Origin: Cystobacter ferrugineus
GTDB lineage: Bacteria; Myxococcota; Myxococcia; Myxococcales; Myxococcaceae
Assembly (NCBI RefSeq): GCF_001887355.1
Contig: NZ_MPIN01000016.1
Coordinates: 208,983 to 272,982, forward strand
Reading direction: 5' to 3'
DNA: 64,000 bases
Shown here: positions 1-30,774 of the stretch, one piece after another
Layout: the number at the start of each line of letters is the position of its first letter
Position numbering within the stretch: the stretch's first letter is position 1
Program-made: the position numbers and the translations under genes
Notes under the pieces: generated by a model
Told to the model about the DNA's origin: nothing
Seen by the model: only the letters and a program-made list of their open reading frames with translations
Databases searched by the model: none

Positions 1-1891
1 AGGCGGCGCGGGCCCCCTCGACAGCTCCTTGCTTCTCCAGCAGCACCCCGAGGTTGTTGGCGGCCCAGGGGGCCGCATCGGCATGGCCGGACTCGATGGC
101 GCGCTGGAAGGCGGCGCGGGCCCCCTCGACAGCTCCTTGCTTCTCCAGCAGCACCCCGAGGTTGTTGGCGGCAAGGGGGGCCGCATCGGCATGGCCGGAC
201 TCGATGGCGCGCTGGAAGGCGGCGCGGGCCCCCTCGACAGCTCCTTGCTTCTCCAGCAGCACCCCGAGGTTGTTGGCGGCCCAGGGGGCCGCATCGGCAT
301 GGCCGGACTCGATGGCGCGCTGGAAGGCGGCGCGGGCCCCCTCGACAGCTCCTTGCTTCTCCAGCAGCAACCCGAGGTTGTTGGCGGCAAGGGGGGCCTC
401 GTCAGCATGGCCGGAGTCCAGGGCGCGCTGGTAGGCGGCGCGGGCCCTCTCGACATCCCCTTGCTTCTCCAGCAACTCCCCGAGGATGTTGGCGGCCCGA
501 GGGGCTGCGTCGACGTGATTCGAGGCCAGCGCCTTCGCGAAGGCGCGCTTCGCCACTCCAAGTTCATTCCGACCATGGGCGACAATCCCGATGGCATTGG
601 CTTCTTCGAAGGTGACGCGCTCGATGAGGAAGTTCCACGTATGTTCGGGAATGCTGGTTCCCTGGCGCTCCAGGAAGTCGGGTATGTAATCGAAGATATC
701 GAAGGCCCTGCCATTCTCTCCCTGCATCGCGAGGAACATCGCGACATGAGAGCTGACGGGCTGTCGGGCCCACTTCAATCCCCGCGCGTAGGTGTCGTCT
801 GTCAGCTCCGCGTCCACACGCAACCCGGACAAGTAGAGCCCGGCGAGCTGCCGAAGCTCCGGCTCTGGAATGGGGCGTTGCAGTCCCGCTCGGCGCCAAT
901 CGGCGGCCGCCAGGACGAGGGCGTTTCCCACCGGCTCTGTCTGGCTTTCGGAGATGAGCTTCCTGGTGAGTTCGCGGGCCGCGACCAGATGCTCTCCAAG
1001 GCCCTTTTGCATCCGGTCCCTGGGCTCATGCGGATAGAGCTGATGCGCCTTGTCGAGCTCGGAAGCATTCAGCTCGGAGTTCAGGGGAACCTCTCCCTCG
1101 TCGAATCTCTTGAGGAGGCTCCGCGTGTCCTCGCCGATTCCGTCCCTACCCAGCAGCTCCCGATACCGGACCGCGGTGAGGGTCGCGACCACCGTGAGCG
1201 GGCGTTTGTGTTGAAGGAGGGTGCTCAGCAGCGACTCGCCGAGGCCACCGGGACCGAGGAAGCGGTGGAGATCGTCGAGCCAGAGCACGGCGGGTCCGGG
1301 CCCCCAGTCGAGCGGCGGCTCGAGGCTGAAGAGTTGTTGAAGAGCAGGCCCGCTCGTGGGAACGAGGAGCAGTGGCTCGAGATGCATGCGGCGGACAGCC
1401 TCGAAGGCCGTGCGTGATTTTCCCGCCTTGGAATCTCCGACCACGAGGACAAGGCGCTTCGTTCGGAGCACTCCGTCGAGCTGTGCATCGATCGCACGTG
1501 GCACGTACGGGGGAAGCTGTCCTGGACGGGCGTACCTCTTGGCGATCTTCGATGGGGTGATGCCCAGCCCATAGGGGTCCATCTGGCTCACGCGGAGAGG
1601 TGGCCACTGGGAGAGCGCCGAGGTGAGAACTCGCTCCCTTGTCTGGCGGTGGCGTTCCTCTTCCTCGTGGAGCTGGCGGTGCTTCTGGTACGCCTCGGCA
1701 ATGTATTTGACGAGTCCGGCCAGCCCTCCCGCGCCCATCACGAGCAGGATCCAGAGTGGCAGCGACTTGTCCCGGAAGAGCGCCAGGAGGGATGCGGCCA
1801 CGAGGCAGACGGCGCCCGCGAACAGCTGGAGCAGCAACGTGCGATGATGGCTTCGCTCCCCATCTGGTGCGTCTGGTCCACGGCCAAGCAC
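1..1891 (-). CDS. membrane-anchored P-loop NTPase with C-terminal TPR-like 36-residue repeats (3' end outside window)
   Basis: The frame stays open from the left edge to a GTG at 1891, preceded by AGGAGG at 6-nt spacing. The N-terminus has two hydrophobic segments (about residues 18-38 and 45-62), then a charged helical stretch. A Walker A motif (GDSKAGKS, about residue 152) and a Walker B-like LWLDD (about 200) mark a P-loop NTPase of uncertain class, possibly STAND-like. After a helical middle region, TPR-like repeats start near residue 440 and become almost identical 36-residue units (for example NNLGVLLEKQGAVEGARA) that run off the edge. STAND-type proteins with such repeats are usually signalling or conflict switches, but the partner or ligand cannot be read here. 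The gene stands alone on its strand. The C-terminus and the total repeat number are unknown. Confidence 0.75.
   Translation of the reverse strand, partial: MLGRGPDAPDGERSHHRTLLLQLFAGAVCLVAASLLALFRDKSLPLWILLVMGAGGLAGLVKYIAEAYQKHRQLHEEEERHRQTRERVLTSALSQWPPLRVSQMDPYGLGITPSKIAKRYARPGQLPPYVPRAIDAQLDGVLRTKRLVLVVGDSKAGKSRTAFEAVRRMHLEPLLLVPTSGPALQQLFSLEPPLDWGPGPAVLWLDDLHRFLGPGGLGESLLSTLLQHKRPLTVVATLTAVRYRELLGRDGIGEDTRSLLKRFDEGEVPLNSELNASELDKAHQLYPHEPRDRMQKGLGEHLVAARELTRKLISESQTEPVGNALVLAAADWRRAGLQRPIPEPELRQLAGLYLSGLRVDAELTDDTYARGLKWARQPVSSHVAMFLAMQGENGRAFDIFDYIPDFLERQGTSIPEHTWNFLIERVTFEEANAIGIVAHGRNELGVAKRAFAKALASNHVDAAPRAANILGELLEKQGDVERARAAYQRALDSGHADEAPLAANNLGLLLEKQGAVEGARAAFQRAIESGHADAAPWAANNLGVLLEKQGAVEGARAAFQRAIESGHADAAPLAANNLGVLLEKQGAVEGARAAFQRAIESGHADAAPWAANNLGVLLEKQGAVEGARAA
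13..454 (-). repeat. 108-bp tandem repeats encoding 36-residue TPR-like units
   Basis: A 108-bp unit recurs with the same landmark at 13, 121, 229, 337 and, more diverged, 445. The first four units are nearly identical at the DNA level. They alternate between a Trp-encoding and a Leu-encoding variant at one position, giving a 216-bp super-period. This suggests duplication of a two-unit block. The array continues beyond the left edge. Confidence 0.9.
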
Positions 1892-3087: not shown

Positions 3088-3196
3088 TTAAACCCGAAAA
3101 AATGAGCCGACTGCTCCTATGGCGGCATCGCGTCTCCGCTCGAAACAGAGAGACCCGACCCACCCCGATTCCCGGCAGCAAGAGAGGAATGTCTTC

Positions 3197-3598
3197 ATGA
3201 ACACGAAGCTCGTTCGTCGAACCGCCATTGCCGTGACCGCCATGGGCCTCCTCGGCCTGACAGGCGCCCTGGTCGTGCCCTCCGCCAATGCCTCCCAGGT
3301 GAGCACCCTCGCCACCTGCAACGCCACCTGGTACGGCGCGGAGGGCGAAATCCCCGAGGGATGGCCGACCGCCAGCGGTGAGCCCTTCAGCCGGTGGGCG
3401 CTCAAGGCCGCACACAACTCCCTGCCGTTCGGTACCCGGGTCAAGGTCACCTACCAGGGCCGCTCCGTCACCGTGACCATCAATGACCGCGGAGGCTTTG
3501 GCGGCGCGACCTGCCTGGACCTCACCTACGGAGCGTTCACGCAGATCGCCAATACCGACCTGGGCGTCATCCCCGTGCAGTACGAAATCCTCCGGTGA
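3197..3598 (+). CDS. secreted RlpA-like double-psi beta-barrel protein
   Basis: 133 residues. The ATG at 3197 is chosen over one at 3119 because it follows a GAGAGGA motif and opens a typical signal peptide: MNTKLVRR, a hydrophobic core, then a cleavage region near NASQ. The mature part has the double-psi barrel signature: ATWYG at the start, then GEPFSRWALKAAHNSLPFGT, then VTINDRGGF, with an aspartate in the DRG motif as in RlpA and related barwin/expansin-like domains. There is no SPOR domain, so it is a minimal secreted domain rather than full-length RlpA. RlpA relatives act on or bind peptidoglycan; activity here is inferred. Two cysteines could form a disulfide. It is a single gene facing away from the degraded gene. 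Confidence 0.8.
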   Translation: MNTKLVRRTAIAVTAMGLLGLTGALVVPSANASQVSTLATCNATWYGAEGEIPEGWPTASGEPFSRWALKAAHNSLPFGTRVKVTYQGRSVTVTINDRGGFGGATCLDLTYGAFTQIANTDLGVIPVQYEILR

Positions 3599-7336: not shown

Positions 7337-8436
7337 CAGCCCCGCCCCTTGTCTGGTACCCCGGCCTCCTCGAAGGTGGCCATGCCCGCGTGCAGCGCGC
7401 ACGCGGCGTCCACCAGCGGCAGCGCCGTCAACGCGCCACTGCCCTCCCCCAGCCGCAACCCCAGCTCGAGCAGCGGCCTCGCGCCGAGGGACTCCAGGAC
7501 GTGCCGGTGGCCCGCCTCCGCCGAGCGGTGGGCGAACAGCATCCACTCCCGCGCGCCCGGGGCCATCCGCTCCAGCGCCAGCATGGCCACCGAGACGATG
7601 AAGCCGTCCACCAGCACGGCCTTGCGCCGCTCGATGGCCCGCCCCGCCGCGCCCATCAGGGCGGCGATGTCCCGTCCCCCCGCGGAGCGCACGGCATGCT
7701 CGGGACTCGCGCCCCGGAGCCGCCGCACCGCATCGCGCACCACCTCCACCTTGCGTGCCAGGCCCGCCTCGTCCACGCCCGTGCCCCGGCCCACCACCTC
7801 CTCCGCCTCCCGCCCGAGCAGCAGCGCCGCCACCGCGGCCGCCACGGTGGTGTTGCCAATGCCCATCTCCCCCAGCACCACCAGGCGGACCTCGTCCGGA
7901 AGCGCGTCCACCTCCGCGGCTCCCGCCGCCAGCGCGCGCTGGAAGGTGGCCTCGCTCATCGCGTCCTCCACCCGCAGGTCTCCCCCCGGCTCGTCCGCCA
8001 CCGGGTCGCGCCGGAAGGAGACTCCCTCGACAGCAGGGGGCGAGAGCGGCCGCATCACCCCCACGTCCACCACGCGCAGCGGCACGCCCAGGTGCCGGCA
8101 CAGGACACTGGAGGCCGCGCCTCCCCGAAGGAAGTTCTCCACCATGGCCCCGGTGACGGCCGGGGGATAGGGCGAGACGCCGTGACGGGTGACGGCATGA
8201 TCCGACGCGAAGAGCAGGGCCGAAGCGGGCCGGCTCCGAGGCAGGGGCGTGCCCTGCAACGCGGCCAGCTTCACCGCCACCTCCTCCAGGACCCCCAGGC
8301 TGCCCGGGGGCTTGGTGAGGCGCGACTGTCTTTGCCGGGCTCGCTCGGCCGCCGCCAGGTCCGGCGCCGGAATGCTCCACCCTCCTCGCGTCGTCTCCAC
8401 CGCTCGGGCGCTCGGCTCGTTCTCCCGGGTGCTCAC
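7336..8436 (-). CDS. cobT: nicotinate-nucleotide--dimethylbenzimidazole phosphoribosyltransferase
   Basis: 366 residues from the GTG at 8436, which overlaps the cobQ stop. CobT activates the lower-ligand base, normally 5,6-dimethylbenzimidazole made by BluB, with nicotinate mononucleotide to give alpha-ribazole phosphate. Hallmarks are RLTKPPGSLG near the N-terminus, FASDHAVTRHGVSPYP, GEMGIGNTT in the active-site region, GGRDIAALMGA and a conserved C-terminal EGSGALTALPLVDAA segment. The length is normal for the family. It works directly with CobS downstream, BluB and the CobC-like phosphatase. Confidence 0.95.
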   Translation of the reverse strand: MSTRENEPSARAVETTRGGWSIPAPDLAAAERARQRQSRLTKPPGSLGVLEEVAVKLAALQGTPLPRSRPASALLFASDHAVTRHGVSPYPPAVTGAMVENFLRGGAASSVLCRHLGVPLRVVDVGVMRPLSPPAVEGVSFRRDPVADEPGGDLRVEDAMSEATFQRALAAGAAEVDALPDEVRLVVLGEMGIGNTTVAAAVAALLLGREAEEVVGRGTGVDEAGLARKVEVVRDAVRRLRGASPEHAVRSAGGRDIAALMGAAGRAIERRKAVLVDGFIVSVAMLALERMAPGAREWMLFAHRSAEAGHRHVLESLGARPLLELGLRLGEGSGALTALPLVDAACALHAGMATFEEAGVPDKGRG

Positions 8437-9920
8437 AGGCCCACCATCTGGTCGAGGTACGTGAGGTCCAGGGCACTCGCGAAATGATCGGCGAGCACCT
8501 CGTACGGGTCGGCCGGGGATGCACCCGCCGTCGTCACGCCGAACTCCGACAGCAGCGCCCGCCGCACCGGCACATTCTCGAAGAGGCCATGCACGAGGGT
8601 GCCCGCCACCTGCCCTCCCCGTGTCACGCATCCCTCGGGCACCTGGCTCGCGTCCTCCCCAGTCCGCATCCGCAGGCCAAAGGGTTGTGCGCCCGGCGCC
8701 ACCGTCACCTGCCCACAATGGATTTCGTAGCCCCGCACCTCGGCGCCTCCGGCGGCGCGCATCCCCGGTAGCCCCTCCCCGAGCCGCAGGGACACCGGCG
8801 CGGTGGACTTCTCCTTCTCGAAGCGCGTCACCACCGGCAGCAGGCCCAGCCCCGCCACATCCGGCTCCGAGGACTCCACGCCCAACGGGTCGAGGATGCG
8901 CTCGCCCAGCATCTGGTAGCCGCCGCAGATGCCCAGCACCGGCTGGCCCTCGTGCACCCGCCGCACCAGCGCTCCCGCCAGCCCCGTGCGCCGCAGCCAG
9001 CCCAGATCATTCGCCGTGCACTTGGTGCCCGGGATGATGACGAGCCGCGCCCCCTCCAGGTCCTCGGGCCGCTCGCACCAGCGCACCTCGACTCCCGGCT
9101 CGCGCGCCAACGGCTCGAACTCATCGAAGTTGGACAGGCGCGGCAGCCTCAGGATGCACACCAGCGCCCCACCCCGCGACTCCGGCTCTCCCTTGCGCAG
9201 GTCCAGCGAGTCCTCGCTGGCGATGCCCGTGTCTCCCAGGTGGGGGATGACTCCCGCCACGCGGATGCCGCACCGGTTCTCCAGAAAGCGCACTCCACCC
9301 TCGAACAGGGCCGGATCGCCGCGGAACTTGTTCACCACCATCGCCCGCACCCGCGCCCGCTCCGCGGGCTCGAGCAGCTCCAGCGTCCCCACCAGCGCCG
9401 CCAGCGCCCCGCCCCGCTCGATGTCCGTCACCAGTGCCACCGGGGCATCGGCTCGCTCGGCCACCCACATGTTCACCAGATCGCGATCCTTGAGGTTCAC
9501 CTCCGCCGGGCTGCCCGCCCCCTCGATGATGACGAGTTCATGGCGCTCGCGCAGGGAGTCCAACGCCTGCCCCACCACCTCGCGCAGCTCGGGCTTGCGC
9601 CGGTGGTAGTCACGAAAGTGCATGCTCCCCAGCACCCGGCCCATCACCACCACCTGGGAGCCCGACGTCGTCTCCGGTTTGAGGAGGATGGGATTCATCT
9701 CCGCGCACGGCACCGCCCGCGCCGCCTCGGCCTGGGCGTATTGGGCTCGGCCGATCTCCGCTCCATCCGGCGTCACCGCGGAGTTGAGCGCCATGTTCTG
9801 CGACTTGAAGGGCGCCACCTTGAAACCCCGCCGCGCGTAGATGCGGCAGAGGGCCGTCACCAGCAGGCTCTTGCCCACGCTGGACGCGGTGCCTTGGATC
9901 ATCAGGGTACGGGCCTTCAT
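8433..9920 (-). CDS. cobQ: cobyric acid synthase
   Basis: 495 residues. This glutamine-dependent amidotransferase amidates four side chains (b, d, e, g) of adenosylcobyrinic acid a,c-diamide. The N-terminal dethiobiotin-synthetase-like domain has the P-loop GTASSVGKSLLV and FKSQNMALNS. The C-terminal class-I-type glutaminase domain carries the cysteine in GICGGYQMLG and the histidine in LVHGLFEN. The start ATG overlaps the stop of the aminotransferase gene (ATGA), and its stop overlaps the cobT GTG. Confidence 0.96.
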   Translation of the reverse strand: MKARTLMIQGTASSVGKSLLVTALCRIYARRGFKVAPFKSQNMALNSAVTPDGAEIGRAQYAQAEAARAVPCAEMNPILLKPETTSGSQVVVMGRVLGSMHFRDYHRRKPELREVVGQALDSLRERHELVIIEGAGSPAEVNLKDRDLVNMWVAERADAPVALVTDIERGGALAALVGTLELLEPAERARVRAMVVNKFRGDPALFEGGVRFLENRCGIRVAGVIPHLGDTGIASEDSLDLRKGEPESRGGALVCILRLPRLSNFDEFEPLAREPGVEVRWCERPEDLEGARLVIIPGTKCTANDLGWLRRTGLAGALVRRVHEGQPVLGICGGYQMLGERILDPLGVESSEPDVAGLGLLPVVTRFEKEKSTAPVSLRLGEGLPGMRAAGGAEVRGYEIHCGQVTVAPGAQPFGLRMRTGEDASQVPEGCVTRGGQVAGTLVHGLFENVPVRRALLSEFGVTTAGASPADPYEVLADHFASALDLTYLDQMVGL

Positions 9921-10969
9921 TCGAGCAACTCCCGGACGCGCCTCCAGGCGGCGCGCAGAAGGGGGTGATCCGCCTCGAGTCTCACGCCGAGGCGGATGTG
10001 ATGCGGAAGGCCGAGGCTGGTGCAGTCACGCACCCGGACGCCAGCCTGGACCGCGGCCGAGGCGAAAGCGCGAGCCTCGGGCACCCGGCACAGGAGGAAC
10101 GTGCCCCCGGAGGCGTCCACCCGGGCGCCGGCCTCGGCCAGGAGTGCTTGCTGCGCACCCCGCAGCCGGGCCACCTCCGCCCGCACCGCGTCCACCTGCC
10201 CGAGACAGTCGAGCGCCACCCGGCCCGCCGCCAGCGCCGGCGCCGAGACGTTCCAGGGCGGGAGGGACGCCTGCACCGCGCGAAGCAGCCGTGGCTCTCC
10301 CAGCAGATAGCCGAGCCGCAACCCCGGCAGGGCGAACACCTTGGTGAGGGAGCGCAGCACCACGACATTGCCTCCCGGGCTCATGGGCGGCACGCCCTCG
10401 AAGAGCGGCTGGTAGGCCTCGTCCACCACCACCAGCGTCCCGGGCGAGGCCTCCGCCGCGGCCCGCACCGCCTCCATCGGGAAGACGGCGAGGCAGGGAT
10501 TGCTCGGCCGGCACACGAAGAGGAGCGACGGCGTGTGGCGGCGGAGCATGGCGAGCAGCGCCTCGAGGTTCCACTCGAAGGGCGGCCCCTCGGCGGCCAG
10601 GGATTCCACCGTGGCGCCGCTGGCGCGCACCGCCTGGGCGTACTCCGCGAAGGCGGGGGTGAGCACCACCGCGCTCCGTCCCGGTCCGGCGAAGGCGCGA
10701 GCCAGGGCCCAGATGAGCTCCACCGAGCCATTGCCCACCACCACCCCGTCCGGCGGCAGCCCGTGCAGCTCCGCCACGCGCTCACGCAGGGGGAGCCCGG
10801 TGGGATGCGGATAGCGCCGCACGTCGGCGGCACGGAAGGACTCGAGCACCGCTTCCGGGGGAGGCAGCGGGGAGACCCCCGTGCTGAAGTCCACGCACCC
10901 GGGCGCCGCATCCCCTCCGTGCGGGGTGGGCTCCAGGTGCAGCAACTCAGGGCGAGGCGAGGGCAACAC
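9917..10969 (-). CDS. cobD: PLP-dependent aminotransferase-fold enzyme, CobD/CobC type (L-threonine-O-3-phosphate decarboxylase)
   Basis: About 350 residues. The GTG at 10969 is preferred because GGGGAGGGG sits just upstream; an ATG at 10990 would overlap cbiB further. The fold is that of histidinol-phosphate aminotransferase: DFSTGVSPLPPP, VGNGSVELIW, the VVVDEAY PLP-aspartate region and the lysine in RSLTKVFALPGLRLGYLLG. Between cbiB and cobQ it is almost certainly the enzyme that makes the (R)-1-amino-2-propanol phosphate that CbiB attaches. The alternative, a true HisC, is unlikely in this context. No PduX-like threonine kinase is nearby to supply its substrate. Confidence 0.85.
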   Translation of the reverse strand: MLPSPRPELLHLEPTPHGGDAAPGCVDFSTGVSPLPPPEAVLESFRAADVRRYPHPTGLPLRERVAELHGLPPDGVVVGNGSVELIWALARAFAGPGRSAVVLTPAFAEYAQAVRASGATVESLAAEGPPFEWNLEALLAMLRRHTPSLLFVCRPSNPCLAVFPMEAVRAAAEASPGTLVVVDEAYQPLFEGVPPMSPGGNVVVLRSLTKVFALPGLRLGYLLGEPRLLRAVQASLPPWNVSAPALAAGRVALDCLGQVDAVRAEVARLRGAQQALLAEAGARVDASGGTFLLCRVPEARAFASAAVQAGVRVRDCTSLGLPHHIRLGVRLEADHPLLRAAWRRVRELLE

Positions 10970-29880: not shown

Positions 29881-30774
29881 TCACGCCTTGGGCGTCTCCT
29901 GCGGCTTCGGCTCCACCGGCTTCGCGGGCGACACGAGCGAATCCAGCCGGCTCGTCAGCCGATCCAGCTCGCGGTTGATCGCGCTCACCTGGGACTGGCT
30001 CGCCACCCCGCCCACCACCTGGATCATCTGGCTGCGCAGCCCGGTCAGGCGCTGACGCACCTCACCGCCCACCCAGCTCGCCTGCTTCTCCAGCTTCTGC
30101 ACGGTGGGGTTGGCGCGCAGATCGTTCACGTTCAGCATCCCCAGCACCTCGCGGCGCGACTCCCGGCCGATCGTCGCCAGCGTATGCAGCGCCTTCTGGG
30201 CATCCGCCTCGATCTGCCCGAGCTGCTTCTGGGCCTGCTCCAGGCGCACCTTCACGAAGGTCGCCACCTGGCCCGCGGCCTCGGTCACCGCCGTCTCCGC
30301 CTTGGCCGCCTCGGCCTTGGCCGCCTCGGCCGCCTTGCCCGCGACCGCCTCCGCCTTGCCCGCCGCCTCGGCCACCGTCTCGGCCGCCTTCTGCGCCACG
30401 GCCTCCACCTTCTCCGCCGCCTTCTGCGCCACGGCCTCCACCTTCTCCGCCGCCATCTGCGTCACGGCCTCCGCCTTCTCGATGGCCTTCTGCGCCGCGG
30501 CCTCCACCCGGCCCGAGGCCGCCTGCGCCGCGTTCTCCGCCTTCGCCGCGGCCGTCTGCGCCGCGCTCTCCGCCACCTCGGCCGCCGTCTGCGTCGCGGC
30601 CTCCGCCGCCACGGCGACCTCACTCACCGTCTGGGCCGCCTCACTCGCCGTCTCGGCCACCGTCTGCGCCGCGGCCTCCACCTTCTCTTCCCCGGCCTTC
30701 ACTGCCTGTGCGGACTCGTCCGCCTGGTGGGAGTTCGACTGATGGGATTTCGAGTGCTTGTGGTGCTTCGCCAT
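29881..30774 (-). CDS. phasin-like alanine-rich coiled-coil protein
   Basis: 297 residues from an ATG at 30774 with GGAGG about 10 nt upstream. The N-terminus is His/Ser/Lys rich (MAKHHKHSKSHQSNSHQ). Residues about 30-180 are long amphipathic helix with near-repeats such as VEAVAQKAAEK and AAQTVAE, composed mostly of Ala, Glu, Lys and Val. The C-terminal third (KVRLEQAQKQLGQIEADAQKALHTL, ..LTGLRSQMIQVVGG) resembles phasins, which coat polyhydroxyalkanoate granules. Other options are a chromatin-like or apolipoprotein-like protein. No PHA synthase is nearby, so the function is inferred from composition. Confidence 0.65.
   Translation of the reverse strand: MAKHHKHSKSHQSNSHQADESAQAVKAGEEKVEAAAQTVAETASEAAQTVSEVAVAAEAATQTAAEVAESAAQTAAAKAENAAQAASGRVEAAAQKAIEKAEAVTQMAAEKVEAVAQKAAEKVEAVAQKAAETVAEAAGKAEAVAGKAAEAAKAEAAKAETAVTEAAGQVATFVKVRLEQAQKQLGQIEADAQKALHTLATIGRESRREVLGMLNVNDLRANPTVQKLEKQASWVGGEVRQRLTGLRSQMIQVVGGVASQSQVSAINRELDRLTSRLDSLVSPAKPVEPKPQETPKA

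Follow-up and report, generated by a model that had tools for sequence, protein, structure and literature searches.

Gene organisation and genomic surroundings

The window, i.e. the whole stretch of 64,000 nucleotides analysed here, originates from the 12.05 Mb draft genome (42 contigs) of Cystobacter ferrugineus and starts at position 208983 of its contig C16 (genome handle G000). It begins within a gene on the minus strand that runs from 210873 to 208096 and encodes a protein of 925 residues. Truncation of this gene by a contig end was rejected, because the contig runs on past the window and the reading frame closes at 208096. The preliminary description had asked for the full gene from adjacent sequence; the adjoining contig sequence indeed completed it, with 12 repeat units. 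The encoded protein combines two predicted transmembrane (TM) helices, a P-loop NTPase region and a C-terminal array of tetratricopeptide repeats (TPRs); the positions of these features are collected in Table 1. With the N-terminal part as query, a paralogue was not found in the same genome (38 of 38 candidates scored). The array DNA as query returned four places (112 candidates, 40 scored), all within the TM–NTPase–TPR gene, and an array elsewhere in this genome was therefore rejected.

Table 1. Positions of features, in window coordinates unless another record is named.
Feature	Position	Strand	Basis
CDS of the TM–NTPase–TPR protein	2..1891, then on to G000:C16:208096	-	GTG start at 1891
First predicted TM helix, residues 19-37	1781..1837	-	prediction
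Second predicted TM helix, residues 43-61	1709..1765	-	prediction
NTPase region, about residues 96-457, AAA+-like fold	521..1606	-	model of moderate confidence
Walker A GDSKAGKSR, residues 152-160	1412..1438	-	sequence
Walker B-like VLWLDDLHR, residues 202-210	1262..1288	-	sequence
GLGEHLVAARELT, place aligned to the relatives' conserved proline; proline absent here	965..1003	-	alignment
Array part in the window: four complete units (1-4) and most of the fifth, out of 12	2..517	-	TRF, unit listing
Streptomyces anulatus pair, repeat region	L069:6900-8000 and L075:6900-7560		

On the right flank, counterparts of an RlpA-like gene and of the sequence starting near 5.4 kb of the window lie side by side in the genomes G001 and G002. 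The RlpA-like gene (window 3119-3598), by eye that of a small secreted protein, marks the start of this syntenic flank. The approximately 16 kb left of the RlpA-like gene in G001 and G002 gave no match of at least 100 bases in G000:C16 170500-212070, and the left stretch of G001 has its counterpart on another contig (C30) of the source genome. The 5 kb adjoining the TPR gene on the left recur in part at other places of G002, with 95-97% identity. A serine-recombinase-like gene is located about 12 kb (L012:3749-6088) and a transposase-like gene about 8 kb (L012:9000-10391) left of the TPR gene; toxin/immunity-like genes surround both of them, all these genes being named by eye. The stretch carrying the TPR gene thus looks accessory. 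The flank match to G001 stops at L012:3700, adjoining the recombinase-like gene, and about 170 bases at the end of the transposase-like gene recur exactly at seven other listed places of the genome.

The repeat array

A 108-bp tandem array in frame with a P-loop NTPase gene, as reported in the preliminary description, was confirmed on the minus strand by TRF, which found 4.7 copies with 92% matches (score 863) in positions 1-512 of the window and 11.9 copies (score 1981) in the complete array formed by the window and the adjoining contig sequence. The array consists of 12 gapless TPR units of 36 residues (108 bp) each, with unit 1 beginning at window position 517, and was matched by Pfam TPR_2 (PF07719) in 11 stretches with 162.5 bits. 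Units 2-9 are homogenised, showing 90.7-100% DNA identity (N counted as mismatch), whereas units 1 and 10-12 are diverged and share 79.6-92.6% DNA identity with other units; the mean amino acid identity across all 12 units is 80.6%. On the basis of their DNA identity, units 2-9 fall above the limit of over 85% identity over 100 residues or more, which PMC4986451 gives for highly conserved repeats of NLR proteins. A uniform middle with diverged ends is the pattern that would be expected from recent expansion within the array, and this gradient backs the expansion that had been proposed. Among units 2-9, pairwise codon differences amount to 77 nonsynonymous versus 21 synonymous ones.

The units had further been described as alternating in one residue, Trp or Leu, with a 216-bp super-period. 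Units 3 and 4 do differ by a single codon (TGG/CTT, all three bases changed, groove position 2) and units 4 and 7 are identical, but changes at positions 4 and 14 set unit 2 apart as well, and additional changes are found in units 6, 8 and 9. At position 7 of the unit, the Trp/Leu column, units 1-12 have the residues R L W L W L L W L R R W, so that the two-unit period is confined to units 2-6 and is lost between units 6 and 7. Mean DNA identities within units 2-9 at lags of 1, 2, 3, 4 and 5 units are nearly equal (95.2, 96.3, 95.9, 94.7 and 96.3%), and 216 bp therefore barely exceeds the other lags. The longest exact repeat comprises 251 bp at a lag of 324 bp (three units), as compared to 153 bp at a lag of 216 bp. 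A super-period across the whole array was rejected on these grounds, and what remains is a local alternation. Duplication of two-unit blocks is likewise only a local pattern here; an exact block duplication, with units 5-6 equal to units 7-8, occurs in a relative (L069).

The base directly before the window is an N inside unit 5, where the codon TNC encodes Phe or Tyr and other units carry T or A. As the number of 12 units rests on a draft assembly with this N and with exact repeats of up to 251 bp, it is not safe.

The NTPase region

STAND proteins are recognised by a set of sequence features, several of which were present in the window protein: a Walker A motif of the form GxxxxGK[ST], a Walker B motif consisting of a hydrophobic stretch that ends in acidic residues and, by the TPR_2 match, C-terminal superstructure-forming repeats. 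The GxP motif is absent; by eye, VAARELT occupies the aligned place in an alignment of eight rows (A1), five of which have proline there and two of which (L015 and L016) a strict GxP. Owing to the missing GxP, we call the protein STAND-like and do not count it as a STAND member. Searches with STAND profiles gave no match to the window protein, AAA_16 with an E value of 0.14 being the only one seen, and Pfam detected neither NACHT nor NB-ARC nor a DNA-binding domain. PADLOC returned weak matches only (REase_II in the repeats, PDC-S28 with 0.084, a 4TM effector with E 0.049), of which REase_II was discarded since it covers 29 residues within the repeats. A sequence search of solved structures, with a best E value of 0.11, was discarded as well.

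An AlphaFold2 model of the part encoded in the window, built from a four-row alignment (mean pLDDT 69.8, pTM 0.43), was confident for the TPR part and of low confidence at residues 298-309, 321-387 and 390-412. A second model comprised residues 96-460 (mean pLDDT 67.1), and in both models the putative winged-helix region (300-410) that follows the helical domain has low confidence. Foldseek matches of the first model are led by TPR proteins, and 6mfv, a STAND protein with TPRs, comes 22nd (E 1.6e-6, rmsd 18.9); the top matches reflect the TPRs and were set aside as evidence for the NTPase class. The model of residues 96-460 matched AAA+ ATPases, with SAMD9 first (E 5.3e-5) followed by NSF, Hsp104 and Cdc48, and with the MalT complex 8bob at rank 14 (E 8.0e-4). 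In a second structure comparison NSF led with Z 11.1, a tie with EfAvs5 at Z 10.3 (185 aligned residues, rmsd 4.0). As judged from the models, the NTPase is of the AAA+-like class and probably, though not provenly, a STAND. These fold matches do not tell STANDs from other AAA+ proteins. Its AAA+/STAND-like appearance gives no indication of a different domain class, which the preliminary description had named as an observation that would speak against it.

Relatives exchange their front modules

The occurrence of the gene is sparse. It is present in one of four genomes of the genus, namely the source genome, and in none of the other three; the gene or a relative was found in 3 of 145 genomes of the order and, by profile search, in 4 of 195 genomes of the phylum, the fourth being marginal (G096, E 1e-3, model positions 19-97). 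The two nearest relatives belong to other genera and share 46% identity in the N-terminal part. A pattern-based search of GTDB contigs yielded one relative in Nocardiopsis trehalosi, and three queries found 9, 16 and 14 records of actinomycete plasmids with relatives. Neither phage records nor viral contigs (the latter by a pattern-based search sensitive to close relatives only) contained a match, so that no prophage link appears and a phage origin was rejected. Matches of the array DNA in 42 of 145 genomes of the order (two candidates scored per genome) were short or weak and were not counted as homologs, except for one (L022) that falls inside the L010 gene.

Equal unit numbers and diverged repeats in close relatives had been put forward as evidence that would contradict recent expansion. 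The repeats of the two nearest relatives are indeed diverged (L010, 48.8% amino acid identity with 15 of 16 units used, against 80.6% here), but their unit numbers are unequal, 16 and 13 versus 12.

The relatives differ in the region in front of the NTPase. Hydrophobic helices, two in the window protein, number three in L010, two each in L009, L015 and L065 and one in L014, and L018 has two upstream of the gene. The front of L011 is PNP_UDP_1 (E 1.4e-12, above the gathering score), which PADLOC matched as 'Effector PN-superfamily' (1.2e-14). By eye, a glycine-rich segment resembling an amyloid motif, of the type ISGG..VVMAG.I.GPV, precedes the NTPase in L067-L071 and L019, and looser versions occur in L065, L066 and L072; L065 combines the motif with helices. 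In the front of L016, NACHT_sigma matched weakly and below its cut-off (E 0.0045). Matches to nSTAND_NTPase5 in L066 (E 4.6e-7) and L065 (E 2.6e-6) and to nSTAND3 in L010, L014, L015 and L019 (E 0.0027-0.31) all lie below the curated cut-offs. A PADLOC PrimPol match in L066 was discarded, as it sits in the repeats. The P-loop lysine is missing in L015:7704-9767 (GDRLSGTSR) and L018:7884-9311 (GDPASGVTR), and judging from these motifs both NTPases may be inactive.

In L071, the C-terminus of an upstream 144-residue product matches the front segment with a score of 66 that none of 2000 shuffles reached. The same C-terminal segment scored 61-72 with L065, L067, L068 and L069, and 38, 23 and 22 with L066, L016 and L073, respectively. 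Pairing of the motif with the upstream gene of the same locus was clear only in L071 and unclear in seven of the eight loci tested, where 337 (L016), 116 (L073), 1568 (L069), 310 (L068), 957 (L065), 201 (L066) and 1321 (L067) of 2000 shuffles reached the pairing score. The 144-residue product (L071:5355-5789) has a hydrophobic N-terminal segment and no match in Pfam, NCBIfam or PADLOC.

Variation of units and of their number

TPR positions 2, 5, 9, 12 and 13 are taken by us, following the consensus-TPR literature, to be groove positions; a literature source for this assignment was looked for and not found. Their mean entropy exceeded that of the other non-core positions in eight of eight arrays, and a fraction of 0.0001 of 20,000 random sets of five non-core positions did as well. 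In the window array, positions 24, 28 and 29 are variable too, and in units 1-8 of L069, which is not among the eight arrays, positions 5, 9, 13 and 22-24 vary. Since variability in the groove is a general property of TPRs, the bias speaks for ligand binding and not for immunity as such. For a Podospora TPR-NLR, selected sites on the concave side are described in PMC4986451.

Copy-number variation, which the preliminary description had considered likely, was seen in a distant relative carried by two plasmids of Streptomyces anulatus, with 9 units in one (NBC_01598, L069) and 4 in the other (NBC_01414, L075). The sequences flanking the units are nearly the same in both plasmids, with 99.6% identity over 1047 bases on one side and 99.9% over 964 bases on the other. 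The copy with 4 units is broken, with a split annotation and a front that is partly missing, and the difference may stem from an error in one record, although both are titled complete. A further S. anulatus copy (L076) is 85.5% identical in one piece over 2183 bases; its unit count, about 11 by eye and 5 by script anchor, is not used as evidence for any reading.

Proposed function and alternative explanations

The product of the window gene is a membrane protein of NLR-like build whose TPR sensor has expanded recently. Of the recognition or defence role that had been suggested, recognition is well supported by the architecture and by the swapping of front modules among relatives. Defence is our best guess, held at slightly better than even chances, and none of the PADLOC models matched the NTPase portion in any protein scanned. 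The defence role is suggested by the architecture and by analogy, since most differences between the repeats fall at the expected site of target binding, as in fast-changing immune receptors.

The explanation we favour, with a confidence a little above even, is an NLR-like (STAND-like) sensor of non-self that acts through a membrane effector and is diversified by repeat shuffling. It builds on computed features, namely the architecture, the TPR identity, the front-module swapping, the homogenised middle, the groove bias and the repeat-number difference in a relative. A STAND-like sensor is suggested because the P-loop NTPase sits between two hydrophobic helices and the TPRs, because relatives with the same NTPase exchange the front module (PNP_UDP_1, TM helices or amyloid-like segment), and because of the sub-threshold nSTAND_NTPase5 matches in L065 and L066 together with the Foldseek match to 6mfv. 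The groove variation in eight of eight arrays, the nonsynonymous excess in units 2-9 and the sparse occurrence (3 of 145 genomes of the order) with relatives on actinomycete plasmids point in the same direction. Weighing against it, the window protein lacks a STAND model match and GxP, a paired amyloid-like motif was found in one of eight loci, the repeats of the nearest relatives are diverged, the Walker A lysine is missing from L015 and L018, positions 28 and 29 also vary in the window array, and the searches of phage records and viral contigs gave no prophage link.

According to this model, the NTPase would be closed at rest. Binding of an inducer, perhaps a protein from a phage or another foreign source, in the groove on the concave side of the TPR superhelix would then make the NTPase open, take up ATP and multimerise. 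Multimerisation would gather the N-terminal two-helix membrane segments, which might then perturb the cytoplasmic membrane, so that the cell is stopped or killed. Specificity could shift via gain, loss and shuffling of near-identical units whose differences lie largely in the groove. The ligand, the oligomerisation, the membrane damage and the immunity in this scheme are putative; published models exist both for STANDs whose sensor consists of TPRs (PMC6468293) and for the repeats of fungal NLRs (PMC4986451).

A membrane-bound STAND-like regulator, similar to the soluble MalT or AfsR and responding to a protein or metabolite of the cell itself, with repeat identity arising from neutral unequal crossing-over in a GC-rich array, appears unlikely to us. 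Tandem arrays homogenise without selection, and the MalT complex 8bob (E 8.0e-4) is among the fold matches. Many STANDs are regulators (PMC6468293, PMC10936776). However, the window protein has no DNA-binding domain, the fronts of its relatives include PNP_UDP_1 and amyloid-like motifs, and the homogenised units show a nonsynonymous excess.

Somewhat less probable still is that the same machine serves kin discrimination (allorecognition) between social cells, like fungal het NLRs, instead of anti-phage defence. The toxin/immunity-like neighbour genes (by eye) and the absent phage link in phage records and viral contigs agree with such a role, as does the incompatibility function of fungal NLRs with conserved repeats (PMC4986451 and PMC12222747), but relatives also reside on actinomycete plasmids, where conflict with phages or plasmids is equally likely. 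That unit order and number are partly a product of assembly, with true copies collapsed or expanded, we hold to be quite improbable: the N in unit 5 at a T or A site, exact repeats up to 251 bp in a genome of 42 contigs and the unreliable short-read assemblies of fungal 126-bp repeats reported in PMC12222747 would fit it, but the frame is open through all 12 units, the outer units have their own differences, and a homogenised array is also found in a plasmid record titled complete (L069).

Beyond the single protein, the favoured non-self sensor might tentatively be extended to a receptor family in social and filamentous bacteria that diversifies like fungal het genes, by unit shuffling and replacement of groove codons, with interchangeable front modules delivering a death signal; we regard this as possible, though doubtful. 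No name for such a family was found in the catalogues and literature searched. If true, some bacteria would generate receptor diversity as fungal allorecognition NLRs do, by repeat-number change and homogenisation with contact residues replaced. The S. anulatus pair, with 9 and 4 units at the same place, would be a ready system to relate repeat number to specificity, albeit with a broken short copy. This reading would also connect immune-type effector modules with genes whose annotation says no more than hypothetical, 'sel1 repeat family protein' or 'tetratricopeptide repeat protein'.

Comparison with known systems

The closest known systems are the conserved-repeat NLRs of fungi such as Podospora HET-D and HET-E, which have the same order of effector, NTPase and near-identical repeats (PMC4986451, PMC12222747); examples are Pa_2_10340 (sesB-like/NB-ARC/TPR) and Pa_3_8560 (PNP_UDP/NACHT/ANK). 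Variation of the TPRs is concentrated at concave-face positions in both, PNP_UDP is among the effectors of the window protein's relatives, and a relative differs in repeat number. In contrast to the fungal proteins, the window protein is bacterial, has a TM front and an NTPase that is neither NACHT nor NB-ARC by Pfam; repeat-number polymorphism is known here from a distant relative (9 versus 4), and a second strain with the gene was not found. The STAND-TPR ATPases PH0952 (PDB 6mfv, a Foldseek match) and MalT (PMC6468293) likewise have a TPR sensor behind a P-loop NTPase, whereas the window protein lacks GxP, carries TM helices at the front and has repeats that are far more alike.

Antiviral STANDs of the Avs and bacterial NACHT type, as covered by PMC10907252, share the N-terminal effector, central NTPase and C-terminal repeat sensor, and EfAvs5 is among the tied fold matches (Z 10.3), but the window protein has no Avs or NACHT family match and its effector is a TM pair. 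Bacterial amyloid NLR signalosomes with BASS motifs and BELL effectors (PMC7889193 and PMC12261475) resemble those relatives that have a short front motif, likened by eye and without assignment to a BASS family. The small protein adjacent to L071 combines a hydrophobic N-terminal segment with a matching C-terminal motif, as in these signalosomes. The window protein, in contrast, has TM helices and no motif, and therefore no motif pair.

Two further observations concern neighbouring and related sequences. One Pseudonocardia plasmid carries two tandem relatives (L017:3764-6550 and 7533-10334) with a helix-turn-helix-looking front, as judged by eye, and atypical repeats. In the window itself, tandem repeats of 33, 66 and 99 bp at 30264-30658 on the minus strand encode an Ala/Lys/Glu-rich repeat protein.
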